Of a DNA stretch of 64,000 nucleotides, positions 5,534 to 24,041 are shown in pieces. The DNA is from Actinomadura sp. HBU206391 (GTDB taxonomy: Bacteria > Actinomycetota > Actinomycetes > Streptosporangiales > Streptosporangiaceae). Position numbers and translations under genes: made by a program. The stretch's first letter is position 1. Every line of letters starts with the position of its first letter. The stretch covers positions 1 through 64,000 of the forward strand of contig NZ_JABVEB010000018.1 in the NCBI RefSeq assembly GCF_014323665.1, written 5' to 3'. The notes beneath the pieces were generated by a model. It ran no database searches, had not been told where the DNA came from, and worked only from the letters and a program-made list of their open reading frames with translations.

Positions 5534-6799
5534 TCAGCGGAGCGCGGCCCCGGCGTCGCTCCGCACCGCGTGAGCCTCGGGACCGGCGGCACGGCGGGCC
5601 ACGAGCGGTTCGCACAGCAGCACGACGAGCGCGCAGGCCGCGATCACGGCGCCGGCCAGCGGGACGGCACGCGGTCCCGTGTGCGGCAGCAGCAGGCCGC
5701 CGATGAGCGCGCCGCCGGAGATGCCGACGTTGAAGGACGCCGAGGTGCCGGCCGCCGCGATCTCCGATCGGCCGGGGGCCACCTGCAGGGTCCTGCTCTG
5801 CAATGCCGTCACCAGCGCGCCCATCGAAAAGCCCGACAGCGCCATCAGCCCGGCCGCCGGGAGCCGTGCGGTGCCCACGACGTACAGCCCGAGCAGCGTG
5901 ACCGTCAGCAGCGTCACCGGAATGACCATCGCCGTTCGCGGGGCACGGTCGACGAAGAGGCCGAACCCCGCCGTGCCGACGATCCCGGTCACTCCCGAGA
6001 GCAACAGGAGCGGGCTGATCGCGGCCGCGGAGAAACCGCTCACGTCGGTGAGGAAGGTCGTGATGTAGGTATGCCAGGTGAACTGGCCGAGGATGATCAG
6101 CCCCGTGGTCACCACCACGATCCAGTAGCGGCGGGTGTCCGGCGTGGTGCCGGTGGCGGCGTGGCCCTGCCCTGGTGGCTCCGTCGGCAGCAGGGCGATG
6201 ACCGCGACGAACGTGAGCGCGCCGAGCGCGCTCAGGGCCAGGAATGCCGCGCGCCAGCCGGACTGCTGGCCGAGCCAGGTGCCCGCTGGGACGCCCGCGA
6301 CGATGCCGAGGGAGCTCCCGGCGAACAGCACGGAGAGGACCCGGCCTCGTACCTCGGGGCGGAACAGGCCCGCGGCCGTGATGCCCGCCACCGACCAGAA
6401 GATCGCCTGCGACAGCGCGGTGACGACCCGGGCCGCCAGCAGCACCGCGTAGCTGGAGGTCGAGACCGACACCACGGTGGCGACCACGAACACGGCCAGC
6501 AGGCCCGAGAGCAGGAAACGGCGCGGGATCTGCCGGGTCCAGTGGGTCAGCGGGACGGAGACGATCGCCACCGTCACGCCATAGCCGGTTACGAGCAGGC
6601 CGACGGCCGACAGCGACACCCGCAGATCCTCCGCGATGACCGGCAGCAGGCCGATCGGCAGGTTCTCCGTCGTGACATAGGCGAACGCCGACACCGCCAG
6701 GGCCACCAGGGCGCCGACCGAGGCCAGCGCGCTGCGGGTGGCCGGGCCCGGGGGGAGCCCGGCAGGTTCACGACCCGCTCCGTCGTCAACTCCGCTCAT
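5534..6799 (-). CDS. MFS transporter, sugar/drug efflux type
   Basis: Major facilitator with about 12 hydrophobic segments over 421 residues, starting at MSGVDDGAG. The N-terminal half has VTTENLPIGLLPVIAEDL, GYGVTVAIVSVPL and FAGSSLGIVAGVPAGTWLG, typical of the AraJ/SotB-like efflux group. It overlaps the end of the GH43 gene by 14 bp and is the last gene of the minus-strand GH3-GH43-MFS unit. Its job there may be export of sugars or glycosides to limit overload; that is inference from context. Import in this locus is more likely done by the ABC system on the other strand. Confidence 0.8.
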   Translation of the reverse strand: MSGVDDGAGREPAGLPPGPATRSALASVGALVALAVSAFAYVTTENLPIGLLPVIAEDLRVSLSAVGLLVTGYGVTVAIVSVPLTHWTRQIPRRFLLSGLLAVFVVATVVSVSTSSYAVLLAARVVTALSQAIFWSVAGITAAGLFRPEVRGRVLSVLFAGSSLGIVAGVPAGTWLGQQSGWRAAFLALSALGALTFVAVIALLPTEPPGQGHAATGTTPDTRRYWIVVVTTGLIILGQFTWHTYITTFLTDVSGFSAAAISPLLLLSGVTGIVGTAGFGLFVDRAPRTAMVIPVTLLTVTLLGLYVVGTARLPAAGLMALSGFSMGALVTALQSRTLQVAPGRSEIAAAGTSASFNVGISGGALIGGLLLPHTGPRAVPLAGAVIAACALVVLLCEPLVARRAAGPEAHAVRSDAGAALR

Positions 6800-8348
6800 C
6801 GGGTAGCCCCGTGTACTCGAACCAGTCGAAGTCGGCGACGTTGGTGCTCTGCGCCCCGTTGGCGCTCGCGTACATCCCGACATAGGCGCCGGTGAAGCCG
6901 CCGGCCACCGGTGAGCTGAGGATCCGGCCGTCGACCGGACCACCGAGCCGCCGCCACCGCCCCGGCTCGGTGGCGTAGCGCATCTGGTACTCCTGCTCGT
7001 GCGCCTCGACGGCCAGGTGGACGCGACCGGGGGCGATCGGTTCCTCGGCCAGCACCGTGTCGACGCCGTCCGCCCGCCAGACCAGCCGCAGGCCCCGGGC
7101 GGTCACGACGAGCAGGATGTGGAAGTCGTGGTTCTGCACGAGGGCCAGCCCGGCGCATTCGCCGTCACCGCGTGGCGTGAAGTCGAGCGCGGCGTGCGCC
7201 GCGAAGCGAAGGTGCTGCTGCCGGCGGGCGACCAGGCTGGGGCTCGCGAGGTCGGTCAGGCTCTCGGGCCGCAGCCGGAGCCGCAGGTGCCCGGGCCGTT
7301 CGGCGAGGCTCCAGAACGGTTCGCGCGGCGTGCGCAGGACATTCCAGTACGGAGCCAGCGAGGGGGCGTCGAAGTGGTCGCAGGCCGGTTCGGCCGGCCA
7401 CCGGCAGGCGGGCAGTTCGGGTGCGGGGTGGACGTCCTCGACCGGACCCGCGACCGGCCAGCCGTCCTCCCAGCGGACCGGGGTCAGGAACGTCTCCCGG
7501 CCCAGGTTGTAGAAGTAGCCGCCGCTGGGCCGCATGGCGAGCAGGACCATCCACCATTCGCCGGTGCCGGTGACCACGAGATCGGCGTGCCCGGTGCCGA
7601 CGATCGGGTGGTCGAGCCCGAGATGCCGGTGGGTGAGGATCGGGTTACGCGCAGCGCCTTCGTACGGTCCGGCGATCCGGTCGGCGCGGGCCACCGTGAC
7701 CGCGTGGTCGTGCTCGGTGCCGCCCTCGGAGGTCAGCAGGTAGTAGCGGCCGTCCACGCGGTAGAGGTGCGGGCCCTCGGACCACACCGCGCCCTTGGCC
7801 GCGCCGTCCCAGATCACGTGCTCGTCGCCGACGAGCTTCAGGTTCCCGGGGTCGAACTCGCGCAGCCAGACCTCGGCGTGCCCCTCGTAGCGGCCGGTGA
7901 GCCGCGAGGCGGTGAACCAGGCCCGGCCGTCGTCGTCGAACAGCAGTGACGGATCGAAGCCTTCACCGTCGAGCCAGTGCGGATCCGACCACGGACCCGC
8001 GGGGTCGGTCGCCGTGACGACGAAGTGACCCGACCGCGCCGGCCCGTCCACCAGCGTGCAGATCACGTAGAAGGTGCCGCGGGTGTGGCGAATGGTGGGG
8101 GCATAGAGGCCGCCGGACGGCCGGATCCCGTCGAGCGCCAGCTGGGCGGGCCGGTCGAGCACGTGACCGAGCGGCCGCCAGTGGACGAGGTCGCGGCTGT
8201 GGAAGATCGGCAGGCCGGGGAACCACTCGAAGCTCGATGTCACCAGGTAGTGGTCGGACCCGACCCGGCAGATCGACGGGTCGGGATGGAAGCCCGGGAG
8301 GATCGGATTCCGGAACCCTCTCGTCTCGCCTTCCGCAGGCACCCTCAC
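6786..8348 (-). CDS. GH43 beta-xylosidase/arabinofuranosidase
   Basis: Glycoside hydrolase family 43 protein of 520 residues without a signal peptide, so probably cytoplasmic. The expected catalytic trio is visible: Asp23 in GFHPDPSIC (base), Asp132 in FDPSLLFDDDG (pKa modulator) and Glu191 in WSEGPHLY (acid). The five-bladed propeller is followed by a C-terminal beta-sandwich (from about residue 330, WNVLRTPREPFW onward) like that of GH43 beta-xylosidases. SSFEWFPGLPIFHSRDLVHW is characteristic of xylosidase-type members. The GTG start at 8348 has AAAGGAAGC before it. It follows the GH3 gene and would release xylose or arabinose from imported oligosaccharides. Confidence 0.9.
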   Translation of the reverse strand: MRVPAEGETRGFRNPILPGFHPDPSICRVGSDHYLVTSSFEWFPGLPIFHSRDLVHWRPLGHVLDRPAQLALDGIRPSGGLYAPTIRHTRGTFYVICTLVDGPARSGHFVVTATDPAGPWSDPHWLDGEGFDPSLLFDDDGRAWFTASRLTGRYEGHAEVWLREFDPGNLKLVGDEHVIWDGAAKGAVWSEGPHLYRVDGRYYLLTSEGGTEHDHAVTVARADRIAGPYEGAARNPILTHRHLGLDHPIVGTGHADLVVTGTGEWWMVLLAMRPSGGYFYNLGRETFLTPVRWEDGWPVAGPVEDVHPAPELPACRWPAEPACDHFDAPSLAPYWNVLRTPREPFWSLAERPGHLRLRLRPESLTDLASPSLVARRQQHLRFAAHAALDFTPRGDGECAGLALVQNHDFHILLVVTARGLRLVWRADGVDTVLAEEPIAPGRVHLAVEAHEQEYQMRYATEPGRWRRLGGPVDGRILSSPVAGGFTGAYVGMYASANGAQSTNVADFDWFEYTGLPDERS

Positions 8349-10844: not shown

Positions 10845-11864
10845 CTAGTCGCGTGGGGGAGCGGCGGTGGAGTGCCGGATGCGCAGTTCGGTGGCGAGTT
10901 CGACCCGTGTGCTCACCAGCGACTGGCCGTCGAGGAGCTGGAACAGGGTGCGCGCCGCGGTGCGCCCCATCTCCTCGAGCGGCTGTCGTACGGTCGTGAG
11001 CGGCGGGGAGAGCCAATCGCACATGGGCAGGTCGTCGAAGCCGACGACGCTGAGGTCCTGGGGTACCCGTAGGCCCGCCTGCCGGGCCGCCTCGTAGGTG
11101 CCCATGGCCTGCTGGTCGCTGCCCGCGAAGATCGCGGTCGGCGGGTCGTCGAGGTCGAGCAGGTCCTGCGACTGGCGGAACGCCCCTTCGTGCCGGAAGT
11201 CGCCGTACCGGATCAGCCGTCGGTCGATCTCGATGCCCGCGCGTTCGAGCGCCGCCCGGTAACCGTCGATGCGGGCCTGGCTGCAGAGCATCTCGCGCGG
11301 GCCGCCGATGACGGCGATCCTGCGATGCCCGAGCGACAGCAGATGCTCGGTCGCCGCGAGCCCGCCGGCCCAGTTGGTGGCGCCCACGCTGGCGATGTCG
11401 CTGTCGGGCAGGTTGACCGGATCGATGACGACGAGCGCGACGCCGGCCCGTTCGAGCTGCTCACGCTGCTTGTGCGTCATGCGCGAGGTCACGAGGATGA
11501 CCCCGTCGCTGTGGTGCAGCGCGGGAAGGCTCGTCCAGCTGGGCGGGCGGGCGTCCTCGTCGCGTACGAGTGAGACCACGGCGCCGACCCCGCGGTCGGC
11601 GCACTCGGACTCGACGCCGCGCAGGATCTCGATGGCCCACGGGCTGTCGAGCCCGCCGATGACCAGGTCGATCAGACCGGAACGTCGGGCTCGCCGCCCG
11701 CCCGGCGCCAGGTAGTTGTGCGACTTCAGCAGGCCCTCGACGCGCTCTCGGGTGGCCGGGGCGACATCGGTCCGGCCGTTGAGGACCTTCGAGACGGTGG
11801 CCTGGGATACCCCGGCCTCCTCCGCGATGAGAGCGAGCGTGGGGCGCGAGTGCTGCTCACTCAC
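10845..11864 (-). CDS. LacI-family regulator of the xylan locus
   Basis: LacI/GalR repressor of 339 residues. The N-terminal helix-turn-helix reads LALIAEEAGVSQATVSKVLN with hinge LKSHNYLAPG, followed by a periplasmic-binding-protein-like sensor domain (DLVIGGLDSPWAIEIL, VALVVIDPVN, LGHRRIAVIGGP, AIFAGSDQQAMG, SVVGFDDLPM). The GTG start at 11864 is chosen because GGAGAGG lies nine bases upstream. It heads the minus-strand GH3-GH43-MFS genes and is divergent from the ABC operon, so it probably controls both sides in response to a xylo-oligosaccharide or related sugar. The effector is inferred from context. Confidence 0.9.
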   Translation of the reverse strand: MSEQHSRPTLALIAEEAGVSQATVSKVLNGRTDVAPATRERVEGLLKSHNYLAPGGRRARRSGLIDLVIGGLDSPWAIEILRGVESECADRGVGAVVSLVRDEDARPPSWTSLPALHHSDGVILVTSRMTHKQREQLERAGVALVVIDPVNLPDSDIASVGATNWAGGLAATEHLLSLGHRRIAVIGGPREMLCSQARIDGYRAALERAGIEIDRRLIRYGDFRHEGAFRQSQDLLDLDDPPTAIFAGSDQQAMGTYEAARQAGLRVPQDLSVVGFDDLPMCDWLSPPLTTVRQPLEEMGRTAARTLFQLLDGQSLVSTRVELATELRIRHSTAAPPRD

Positions 11865-21064: not shown

Positions 21065-21748
21065 TCAGCCGCGCGGGTCCGGGCGCAGCACCTCGATGAT
21101 CCGGCCGTCGGCGGCGGTCGCCGTGATGGTGACCGGATCGGCGTCGGACGGCCACCAGGCGAGGTAATGGCCCGCGCTGATGGTCGCCGTCACGAGGCGC
21201 CGGTCCGCGGTCGTGATGACGACCGTCGACACCTTGGACGTCGCCTTCCCGTACGCCACCCGGAACGGGACGGACCTGTCGATCCGCGCGGACCTGTCGA
21301 TGCGCACGGGTGCTCCGCCGAGCACGATCCCGTCGCCCGTGAGGCGGCCGGCGTCGCCGGCGCCCACGAACAGCGGCGCGCCGGGTTCGCCCACGCACAT
21401 GCCGTACCGGCCGGAGCCGCTCATGAGCACCGCGGTGAGGCCGCCTCGATCCTCCGCCACCACCTCCTTCAGACCCGCGGCGTCGAGCGACCGAGGCTGC
21501 CCGGAGAGCCGTTCCTGGCAGGAGTGGGCCGCCGCCGTCCTGGCCGCGGGACTGAGGGAGGCCGGGACCGCCGTCCACGACGCCACCGGAGAGGGACTCT
21601 CGAAGGCCATGCCGCCGATCACCAGGGCGATGTCGACCACGGCCAAGGGCGCGAGCGGGGCGAGCAGCATCCAGCGGCGGCGCCGTCGGTCCCGCGACGA
21701 CCGGCCTTTGCCGAGGTCACCGAGGTCGCCGGCCGCTCTGAGCTTCAT
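21065..21748 (-). CDS. Single-pass membrane protein, unknown
   Basis: Unrecognised protein of 227 residues. A basic N-terminus (SSRDRRRRRW) leads into one hydrophobic segment (MLLAPLAPLAVVDIALVIGG), after which the protein should lie outside the membrane. The outer part has two cysteines (AAHSCQERL and RYGMCVGEPG) and beta-rich sequence ending ADGRIIEVLRPDPRG. The layout resembles the membrane partner proteins that accompany actinomycete sigma factors, but no sigma factor gene adjoins it. It converges on the GH10 gene. Function not assigned. Confidence 0.6.
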   Translation of the reverse strand: MKLRAAGDLGDLGKGRSSRDRRRRRWMLLAPLAPLAVVDIALVIGGMAFESPSPVASWTAVPASLSPAARTAAAHSCQERLSGQPRSLDAAGLKEVVAEDRGGLTAVLMSGSGRYGMCVGEPGAPLFVGAGDAGRLTGDGIVLGGAPVRIDRSARIDRSVPFRVAYGKATSKVSTVVITTADRRLVTATISAGHYLAWWPSDADPVTITATAADGRIIEVLRPDPRG

Positions 21749-21993
21749 GCGCGGGTCTCCTGACTTGTCCAGCAGGCGTGGGCCGACCGGCTCGGGTCAG
21801 CTGGGGAGGTGTGCGGTGTCTCGAGCCTCATGGCTGAGAGCGGCCCGCACAAGATCGGGACCTGTCCGAGCCTGTCCGTATCTGTCTGTGCAGGTCAGAG
21901 GCTTCGCCGGCGGGCGAGCGGATCTCGGACGGCGGCGTCGGCGCTGCTCGTTCCCGCTGGACGGTTATCGATCACCGTCGATAGATTCGTCCC

Positions 21994-23175
21994 GTGCCCC
22001 TCGACACGTTCCAGCCCGATCCGGACGGGGCACGAACCGCTGCCGAATTCGTGGCCCTGCTGCGGAGTCTCAAGGGGTGGTCCGGGCTCACCTACCGGCA
22101 GCTGGAGACGCGGGCGCAGAGCAACGGGGACTTCCTGCCGCGCAGCACGATCGCCACCGCGCTCGGCCGAGAGTCGCTCCCTCGCGAGGAACTGGTCAGG
22201 GCGCTGGTCATGGCATGCGGTTGCGATGCCGAAACCGTCGCCCGCTGGTCGTCGGCGCGCCGGCGGCTGGCGACCGGGCCGGACGTCGCCGGGATCGCCG
22301 GCGCGCAGCCGTCCGGTGGCGAGGTGGACGAACTGGCGTCGGAGGACGTTCGCCGTCTCCCCGCCCCTCGTGGCCGGCTGCGCCGCCGCGGCATCGGCCG
22401 AGTGCTGGTTCCGGTCGCGGCCGCCTCGTTCGCCGTCGCCCTCGCGGCCGGGCTGGTGCCCGGCGTTCCCGGACTGACCTCCGGTTCGGACGGCTCAGCA
22501 CGACCCACCGGGTCGGCCGCCGCGCCGCGGCTTCCGGCGCCGGCGGCCTGGTGGCGGTTCGAAGAGGCCGGTGGCCGGGCGGTGTCGGACTCCTCCGGGC
22601 ACGGTTTCGCCGCCGCCGCGCATGGCGGCGTGCGGCCCATGGCGGTCCCGGGCGGCCGTGCCCTGGAGTTCGACGGCACCGGTCATCTCGCCACAGACGG
22701 CCCCGTCATCCGCTCTGACGCGGCCTTCACGATCACGGCGTGGGTGCGCCTCGACGAGCTCGGCCAGTGGACCACCGTGGTCACCCAGCACGCGGGCGCC
22801 TATCCCGCCTTCCTGGTGAACTACGATCCCGACCATTCCGAATGGGTGTTCATGATGCCCCACCCGGTCAGCGGCTCCATCAAGGGCGACCGGGGACTGT
22901 TCAGCGGGATCCCGGCGACGCGCGGAAAGTGGACCCACCTGGCGGCGATCTTCGACCCCGTGGCCGGACAGGTGAGCCTCTACATCAACGCCGTCATGGA
23001 GGCCTCCGGCCCCGGCACCGCGATGCGCCGGGGCGACGGTCCTTTCGACATCGGGCGAGGATGGCGCGACGGCAGGGCGATCGACGGCTGGCGCGGCGCG
23101 ATCGACGACGTACGGGTCTTCGACCGCGTCCTCACCGCCACTCAGATCCGCGACGTGCTGACCCACCGGACATAA
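21994..23175 (+). CDS. HTH-membrane-LamG fusion protein
   Basis: Protein of 393 residues with three parts. Residues 1-95 form a helix-turn-helix-like module (TAAEFVALLRSLKGWSGLTY, LPRSTIATALGRESLPREEL, MACGCDAETVARWSSARRRL) as found in actinomycete XRE-like proteins. Residues about 130-156 are one hydrophobic segment (RVLVPVAAASFAVALAAG). Residues about 180-393 form a LamG/concanavalin-like domain (WWRFEEAGGRAVSDSSGHG, FTITAWVRLDELG, WTHLAAIFDPVAGQVSLYIN, GAIDDVRVFDRVLT). The DNA-binding part would stay in the cytoplasm and the glycan-binding-like part outside, suggesting a one-protein sensor. No signal peptide precedes the HTH. Direct DNA binding is inferred. Confidence 0.75.
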   Translation: MPLDTFQPDPDGARTAAEFVALLRSLKGWSGLTYRQLETRAQSNGDFLPRSTIATALGRESLPREELVRALVMACGCDAETVARWSSARRRLATGPDVAGIAGAQPSGGEVDELASEDVRRLPAPRGRLRRRGIGRVLVPVAAASFAVALAAGLVPGVPGLTSGSDGSARPTGSAAAPRLPAPAAWWRFEEAGGRAVSDSSGHGFAAAAHGGVRPMAVPGGRALEFDGTGHLATDGPVIRSDAAFTITAWVRLDELGQWTTVVTQHAGAYPAFLVNYDPDHSEWVFMMPHPVSGSIKGDRGLFSGIPATRGKWTHLAAIFDPVAGQVSLYINAVMEASGPGTAMRRGDGPFDIGRGWRDGRAIDGWRGAIDDVRVFDRVLTATQIRDVLTHRT

Positions 23176-23202: not shown

Positions 23203-23817
23203 TCACGCGGAGGACTCGTACCTGTAGCCGACCCGCCGGATCGTGACCAGCCGATGGCCGTGCGGACCGAGCTTGCGGCGCAGCCGGTGGACGTGGACGT
23301 CCACCGTCCGCGCGCTCGGCCCGAACTCCGCTCCCCAGACCGATGCCAGCAGCTGCCGGCGGCTGAAGACCTGACCCGGATGGGCGGTCAGATGGGCGAG
23401 CAGCTCGAACTCCTGGTAGGCCAGGTCGAGTTCCCGGCCGGCCGACCAGGCCCGCCGCGTGGCTCCGTCGACGACGACGTCGCGGAGGGCGGGCGCGGGT
23501 GCTTTCGCGGCGGGCGGCCCGGTCGCAGTCGATGCGGCGGCGGGCTGCGAGGACGACGGGGACGGCGGGAGCGGCGAAGACGACGGCGGAAGCGGCTCCG
23601 TCCGTTCGGGCATCGCGGTCTCGTCGGTGGTGATGAGATGCCCGACGATGGCGAGGGCCCTGCCGGTCCCGGGCACCGGGACGACGCCGAGGAGCGTGCC
23701 GTGCTCACCCGGCAGCGCGCGGGCGGCGGCGGTCAGGTCCTTTTCGGTGGCGGAGGTGACGACGTCGCGCACGTACGCGACCAGATCGATGACGTTCGCG
23801 AGCTGCTGCTCGGGCAT
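23203..23817 (-). CDS. Winged-helix (OmpR/PhoB-type) regulator
   Basis: Protein of 204 residues starting at MPEQQLANVI. The C-terminal ~95 residues are a Trans_reg_C winged helix: ARRAWSAGRELDLAYQEFEL-type entry, LLAHLTAHPGQVFSRRQLLA, ARTVDVHVHRLRRKLG and TIRRVGYRYE. The N-terminal half is not a receiver domain; it is a short alpha/beta stretch (VIDLVAYVRDVVTSATEKDL) followed by a Pro/Ser-rich linker of about 40 residues. It is thus an orphan regulator without a phosphorylation site. A more upstream start at 23880 is open but poorly supported. Target genes are unknown; it converges on the LamG fusion gene. Confidence 0.75.
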   Translation of the reverse strand: MPEQQLANVIDLVAYVRDVVTSATEKDLTAAARALPGEHGTLLGVVPVPGTGRALAIVGHLITTDETAMPERTEPLPPSSSPLPPSPSSSQPAAASTATGPPAAKAPAPALRDVVVDGATRRAWSAGRELDLAYQEFELLAHLTAHPGQVFSRRQLLASVWGAEFGPSARTVDVHVHRLRRKLGPHGHRLVTIRRVGYRYESSA

Positions 23818-24041
23818 GGCGATCCCGTTTCCAGTGGTCGAAGCGATCGGTGGGCGGATGCGGGGCGGCGGCCGTCGCACAGCGCGCTCGCCTGCAGCCG
23901 GAGATCCACGTGCAACCGCGCCACGAGAAGCGGATCGGTCTTCATAGCGACATCATCCGAGCGGTTTCAAACTAAGTCAACTCATAAAGTAGGGAATATC
24001 GGGAGCATCGATAGCACCGACCGCACTCACCCACACCCTTC
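23818..24041. other. Intergenic region upstream of the winged-helix gene
   Basis: With the repeat locus next to it this makes about 320 bases without a confident gene. It includes an A/T-richer stretch (about 23945-24000, for example AACTAAGTCAACTC) that probably holds the minus-strand promoter of the winged-helix gene. A minus-strand frame from 23945 begins MKTDPLLVARLHVDLRLQAS with high GC at third positions, but it overlaps the regulator start out of frame and has no clear ribosome binding site. Confidence 0.4.

Follow-up and report, generated by a model that had tools for sequence, protein, structure and literature searches.

The window analysed here, 64,000 nucleotides from Actinomadura sp. 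HBU206391, holds a xylan-type locus encoding GH43, GH3, a LacI-family regulator, a sugar ABC transporter, GH30, DUF6807 and GH10. It also contains an open reading frame (Table 1) with a third-position GC content (GC3) of 0.87, whose product matches two Pfam families, HTH_31 (29.8 bits, cutoff 27) and Laminin_G_3 (99.4 bits, cutoff 27.6), and no further family at E ≤ 1. Both domains lie above their cutoffs with one hydrophobic segment between them, which bears out the order of HTH, membrane segment (TM) and LamG in a single protein that the original prediction had read from this DNA. Searches against NCBIfam named neither this protein, for which the best model was the TafC fimbrial one at 29.2 bits (cutoff 410), nor any of five relatives above cutoff, and three proteins searched against a defence library gave no match.

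Table 1. Features of the HTH-TM-LamG gene and its surroundings, in positions of the window.
Feature	Position	Strand	Description
LacI-family regulator	10845-11864		within the xylan-type locus
Divergent one-TM protein	21065-21748	-	227 aa
Phased repeats	21862-21898		three 10-bp repeats CTGTCYGNNN, then AGGTCAG
Perfect inverted repeat TATCGA-N6-TCGATA	21966-21983	+	overlaps promoter; weak candidate for an autoregulatory operator
Candidate -10 element TAGATT	21982-21987	+	six bases before GTG; from alignments and consensus reading only
CDS of HTH-TM-LamG protein	21994-23175	+	393 aa, GTG start, stop codon included
Predicted cytoplasmic HTH domain	22021-22284	+	aa 10-97; Pfam HTH_31 aa 18-85; five predicted helices 16-30, 34-43, 53-58, 65-74, 79-93
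Variable linker	22285-22401	+	aa 98-136; basic end RGRLRRRGIGR
Single transmembrane segment	22402-22458	+	aa 137-155, by hydropathy
Predicted extracytoplasmic LamG / concanavalin A-like domain	22540-23166	+	aa 183-391; Pfam stretch aa 227-385
Convergent neighbour	23203-23880	-	C-terminal Trans_reg_C winged helix

The transmembrane segment, called by hydropathy only, is the best 19-residue hydrophobic window of the protein (mean Kyte-Doolittle value 2.37). By the positive-inside rule, the basic flank of a transmembrane helix stays in the cytoplasm; since eight lysine or arginine residues were counted in the flank before the segment and two in the flank after it, the HTH domain is predicted to lie inside and the LamG domain outside the cell. 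In PDB, the LamG sequence matched 4qvs (E 2e-8) and 5hon (E 1.2e-6), the latter a domain from an extracellular arabinanase. Modelled alone, this domain reached a pLDDT of 36.7, which is too poor for an assessment of its fold.

The original prediction had made its reading depend on structure prediction giving the N-terminal part an HTH fold. An AlphaFold2 model from three sequences only places five helices between residues 16 and 93 at fair confidence, with block means of pLDDT of about 62-89 over residues 11-90 and values under 50 from residue 97. In the whole model, 303 of 393 residues have a pLDDT < 50, and Foldseek found no match to it at E ≤ 0.001. The structural neighbours of model residues 13-97 in PDB are mostly XRE-type DNA-binding proteins with Z-scores of 5.0-6.5 (3f6w at 6.5, 3eus at 6.4, also C.Esp1396I, HigA and ClgR), with a few unrelated proteins interspersed. 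A match of this strength (Z < 8) supports a predicted HTH fold and is not proof of function; the outcome that would have refuted the original reading, a model lacking this fold, did not arise. Searched by sequence against PDB at E ≤ 10, the HTH profile found no XRE protein, and the homeobox and insulin-like proteins that it did find were at chance level (E 0.31 or worse); the placement among DNA-binding XRE proteins therefore rests on the Pfam match and the modest structural one.

Orthologues covering both domains are present in Actinomadura alba (L015, 67% identity) and Actinomadura sp. DC4 (L016, 48%). Among 200 genomes of the host's family, 18 had matches at E ≤ 1e-40, of which 11 matched over part of the protein only, and the search for the same architecture that had been proposed at the outset yielded full-length matches to HTH and LamG together in six (G000, G001, G121, G528, G501, G483), where G000, G001, G121 and DC4 stood in the query alignment. 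Because these matches and the two orthologues cover both domains, we consider it confirmed that the reading frame encodes a real HTH-TM-LamG protein with an architecture beyond chance. The combination of HTH, one TM segment and LamG is present in three genera and no fewer than six genomes; at E ≤ 1e-45, a class-wide search for the full architecture, in which four candidates were scored per genome, found it in at least 2 of the 394 genomes covered. In the remaining one of the 18 genomes (L087; G545:C109, about 5555-6839), the HTH part and the TM-LamG part lie in two frames, a sign either of gene decay or of an error in the draft.

Comparison with the A. alba orthologue (Nei-Gojobori, one pair) gave dN/dS values of 0.22 for the HTH and 0.36 for the LamG domain, and of 0.77, 0.78 and 0.98 for the linker, the TM region and the stretch that follows it. 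Both end domains are thus under constraint, the HTH most, and the connecting parts are free to vary. Six compared LamG members have in common a GTG with a TANNNT element (TAGATT, TAGGTT or TAAGTT) that ends 6-7 nucleotides upstream of it; the seventh, that of G121, does not show this arrangement. The shared spacing supports the GTG start and suggests that the transcript may be leaderless; a rule-based search for sigma-70 sites found none at this promoter.

The inverted repeat overlapping the promoter is shared by only the two closest species, the host and A. alba, and neither genome has a second copy of the 20 bases around it at up to 2 mismatches. Since shuffling of the 60 nucleotides of this region yields an equally good inverted repeat in 14% of trials, it is not significant on its own; we rejected it as an established operator and keep it as a candidate site, a weak lead for possible autoregulation. 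Further upstream, the divergent intergenic region carries phased repeats, largely kept in A. alba, which could serve either flanking gene.

The HTH domain belongs to a wider family, as 48 of 100 genomes of the host's family matched a five-row HTH query at E ≤ 1e-8. We examined 36 proteins, namely 35 of the 36 strongest places and the DC4 protein, leaving out G092:C886 (L049), whose first 120 residues are identical to those of L024; the set also excludes nine weaker relatives (E 9e-20 to 1.5e-15) in which the HTH lies close to the protein end and no TM segment follows. A single hydrophobic segment (score ≥ 1.5) follows the HTH in 32 of the 36, and lysine and arginine residues are more numerous before than after it in 26 of these 32, with four ties and two reversals. 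The segment of L002 is marginal (1.45), and in three proteins no segment qualifies: L005 and L025, which carry a P-loop domain, and L055, which carries WD40. At E ≤ 0.01, Pfam matches in the 36 proteins were to HTH_31 (34), RicinB_lectin_2 (13), Ricin_B_lectin (8; the two lectin sets may overlap), Laminin_G_3 (4) and WD40 (3), while PG_binding_1 together with a weak SLT_3 match occurred in three (L002, L019, L057). Judged by eye, separately from the Pfam counts, 18 of the 36 tails are beta-trefoil-like, five are short and one is SGNH-like. Since two of the 36 HTH domains are fused to an NB-ARC-like P-loop domain and three to WD40, the HTH is not confined to membrane sensors; in two of the three WD40 fusions (L051, L053, L055), a twin-arginine-like hydrophobic stretch lies between the two parts.

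Proteins with an HTH, a TM segment, PG_binding_1 and a lysozyme-like domain (L002:1468-2559, L019 and L057) are possible peptidoglycan-reading members of the same HTH-TM family. The host genome itself encodes three of these plans: HTH-TM-PG_binding in C468, HTH-TM-beta-trefoil in C380, where the Ricin_B_lectin match is below cutoff, and HTH-P-loop in C533. Beyond the family, a 30-row HTH profile matched 13 of 246 genomes in a class-wide draw at E ≤ 1e-18, and the HTH-TM-beta-trefoil plan recurs in genomes of a second family (f20). In a tree of the HTH alone (51 rows, 91 columns, many forks open; 25 rows labelled beta-trefoil by eye), six of the seven LamG-linked HTH domains form one clade (98/94), with which the seventh, from G121, is compatible (p-AU 0.588). 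The outer-domain labels require 13 changes on this tree, against a mean of 24.9 for shuffled labels, which suggests that HTH and outer domain have largely been inherited together, with some exchanges.

The original prediction had proposed a one-component sensor of a surface ligand or glycan. This proposal is supported in part. It is the best reading, in agreement with the HTH fold, the single TM segment, the topology and the recurrence of the plan with other domains of glycan- or wall-binding type; its DNA-binding and glycan-sensing parts we infer. In our judgement it is rather probable that the protein is a single-pass transmembrane one-component regulator, with an XRE-like HTH that would bind DNA in the cytoplasm, a helix that would cross the membrane once and a LamG domain on the outer face, where it may read a glycan or wall polymer as its ligand. 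Binding outside the cell could change how the protein clusters or dimerises, or whether it is cleaved, and in the altered state the HTH may gain or lose its hold on target DNA, perhaps at its own promoter. Taken together, the HTH-TM proteins most likely form a family of single-pass transmembrane regulators of the one-component type, whose glycan- or wall-binding sensors are exchangeable and whose DNA binding, ligands and targets are presumptive. More tentatively, and with somewhat less than even odds, they may represent a family of wall- or glycan-reading transmembrane transcription factors of filamentous actinomycetes, in which a conserved HTH-TM chassis carries LamG, beta-trefoil lectin or peptidoglycan-binding/lysozyme-like modules.

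The position of the gene right after the xylan locus, to which the original prediction had drawn attention, raises the alternative of a dedicated regulator of the neighbouring GH43/GH3/GH30/GH10 genes. The gene adjoins GH10 both in the host and in A. alba, and the arabinanase match of the LamG domain would suit such a role. Yet the locus already has its LacI regulator, and in four other genomes no xylan genes were recognised beside the HTH-TM-LamG gene: it lies next to genes for a small secreted protein and a GDSL-type hydrolase in DC4/G528, G501 and G483, and next to an ABC transporter in G121. Xylan adjacency therefore holds for two Actinomadura species and does not characterise the family. 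The inverted repeat likewise lends no support to control of the xylan genes, since the window holds no second copy of it with up to 2 mismatches. These observations leave the functional link to xylan weak and make a regulator for xylan only very improbable. Among the other neighbours, the small secreted proteins lying directly upstream of the gene in three genomes (L084, L085, L086) appear NlpC-like by eye, and the one tested had no Pfam match. The divergent one-TM protein of the host has no Pfam match and corresponds in A. alba to a shorter, 141-residue frame, so it is unlikely to be a conserved co-component partner. No receiver domain was found in the convergent winged-helix protein, which lies beside the gene in A. 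alba too.

The main rival is a RodZ-like scaffold, in which the HTH would dock a cytoplasmic protein instead of DNA and the outer domain would anchor the complex to the wall during growth or division. RodZ has an HTH inside, one TM segment and an outer beta domain, a plan that the present protein shares; the peptidoglycan-binding domains of its relatives and an HTH match that is moderate in Pfam and absent from PDB by sequence also suit a scaffold. However, the 393-residue protein matches no HTH_25 (PF13413) at E ≤ 1 and ends in Laminin_G_3 in place of a RodZ C-terminal domain. Its gene is not among the five HTH_25 places of the genome, one of which, at C78, encodes a separate strong HTH_25 protein (64.3 bits, 270-residue frame). 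The patchy distribution across 6 of 200 family genomes and the exchange of outer domains are also more in keeping with an accessory sensor than with a core scaffold, and we regard the scaffold as unlikely, if deserving of serious attention. Somewhat less likely still is a latent transcription factor, from which binding outside would trigger intramembrane proteolysis and free the HTH to reach DNA, as when RseP cuts RsgI anti-sigma factors. According to the covered parts of one study, RsgI of Clostridium thermocellum detects substrates and is cleaved within its TM helix, a region reported to be poorly conserved (PMC12203970), like the unconstrained linker and TM sequence found here; against this, the covered parts of a survey describe transmembrane regulators as acting from the membrane (PMC10269533).

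How filamentous actinomycetes sense the state of their wall, or insoluble polysaccharides, without import is poorly understood. If the transmembrane regulator reading is true, one genome would have a few kinase-free lines linking the cell surface with promoters, and swappable outer domains on one inner domain would amount to a direct route from surface to gene. The family members would also be a ready series for domain swaps on the switching of a membrane-held HTH.

ToxR and CadC are one-component regulators with a cytoplasmic N-terminus, a single TM segment, an outer sensor domain and a winged Trans_reg_C domain. The present protein resembles them in its one-component plan, predicted orientation, single TM segment and putative outer sensor, but has HTH_31 and no match to PF00486 at E ≤ 1. 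More generally, transmembrane transcription regulators (TTRs) unite a DNA-binding domain and at least one TM segment in one protein, most commonly single-pass, according to the covered parts of Demey et al. 2023 (PMC10269533). A domain of DNA-binding type and a TM segment are both present here, and DNA binding and action on transcription from the membrane are predicted. The main text of that survey has no match for XRE, HTH_31, lectin or Actinobacteria, and LamG, beta-trefoil and peptidoglycan-binding outer domains are undescribed in the parts covered. RsgI and ECF52/53, known or predicted polysaccharide sensors in the covered parts of PMC12203970 and PMC10766802, share an outer polysaccharide-binding module, a single TM segment and an inner transcription output; their output is a sigma or anti-sigma domain, whereas the present protein has an HTH and no sigma or anti-sigma match at E ≤ 1. 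Its outer domain belongs by sequence profile to the Laminin_G_3 / concanavalin A-like group, with carbohydrate binding as a prediction only; its sequence matches 4qvs and 5hon come from surface proteins or enzymes, whereas in the present protein the domain shares its chain with an HTH. Searches of the open, non-subscription literature yielded no description of this architecture. Transmembrane transcription regulators are already known; as far as the open literature shows, the combination of HTH_31, TM segment and LamG is new among them.
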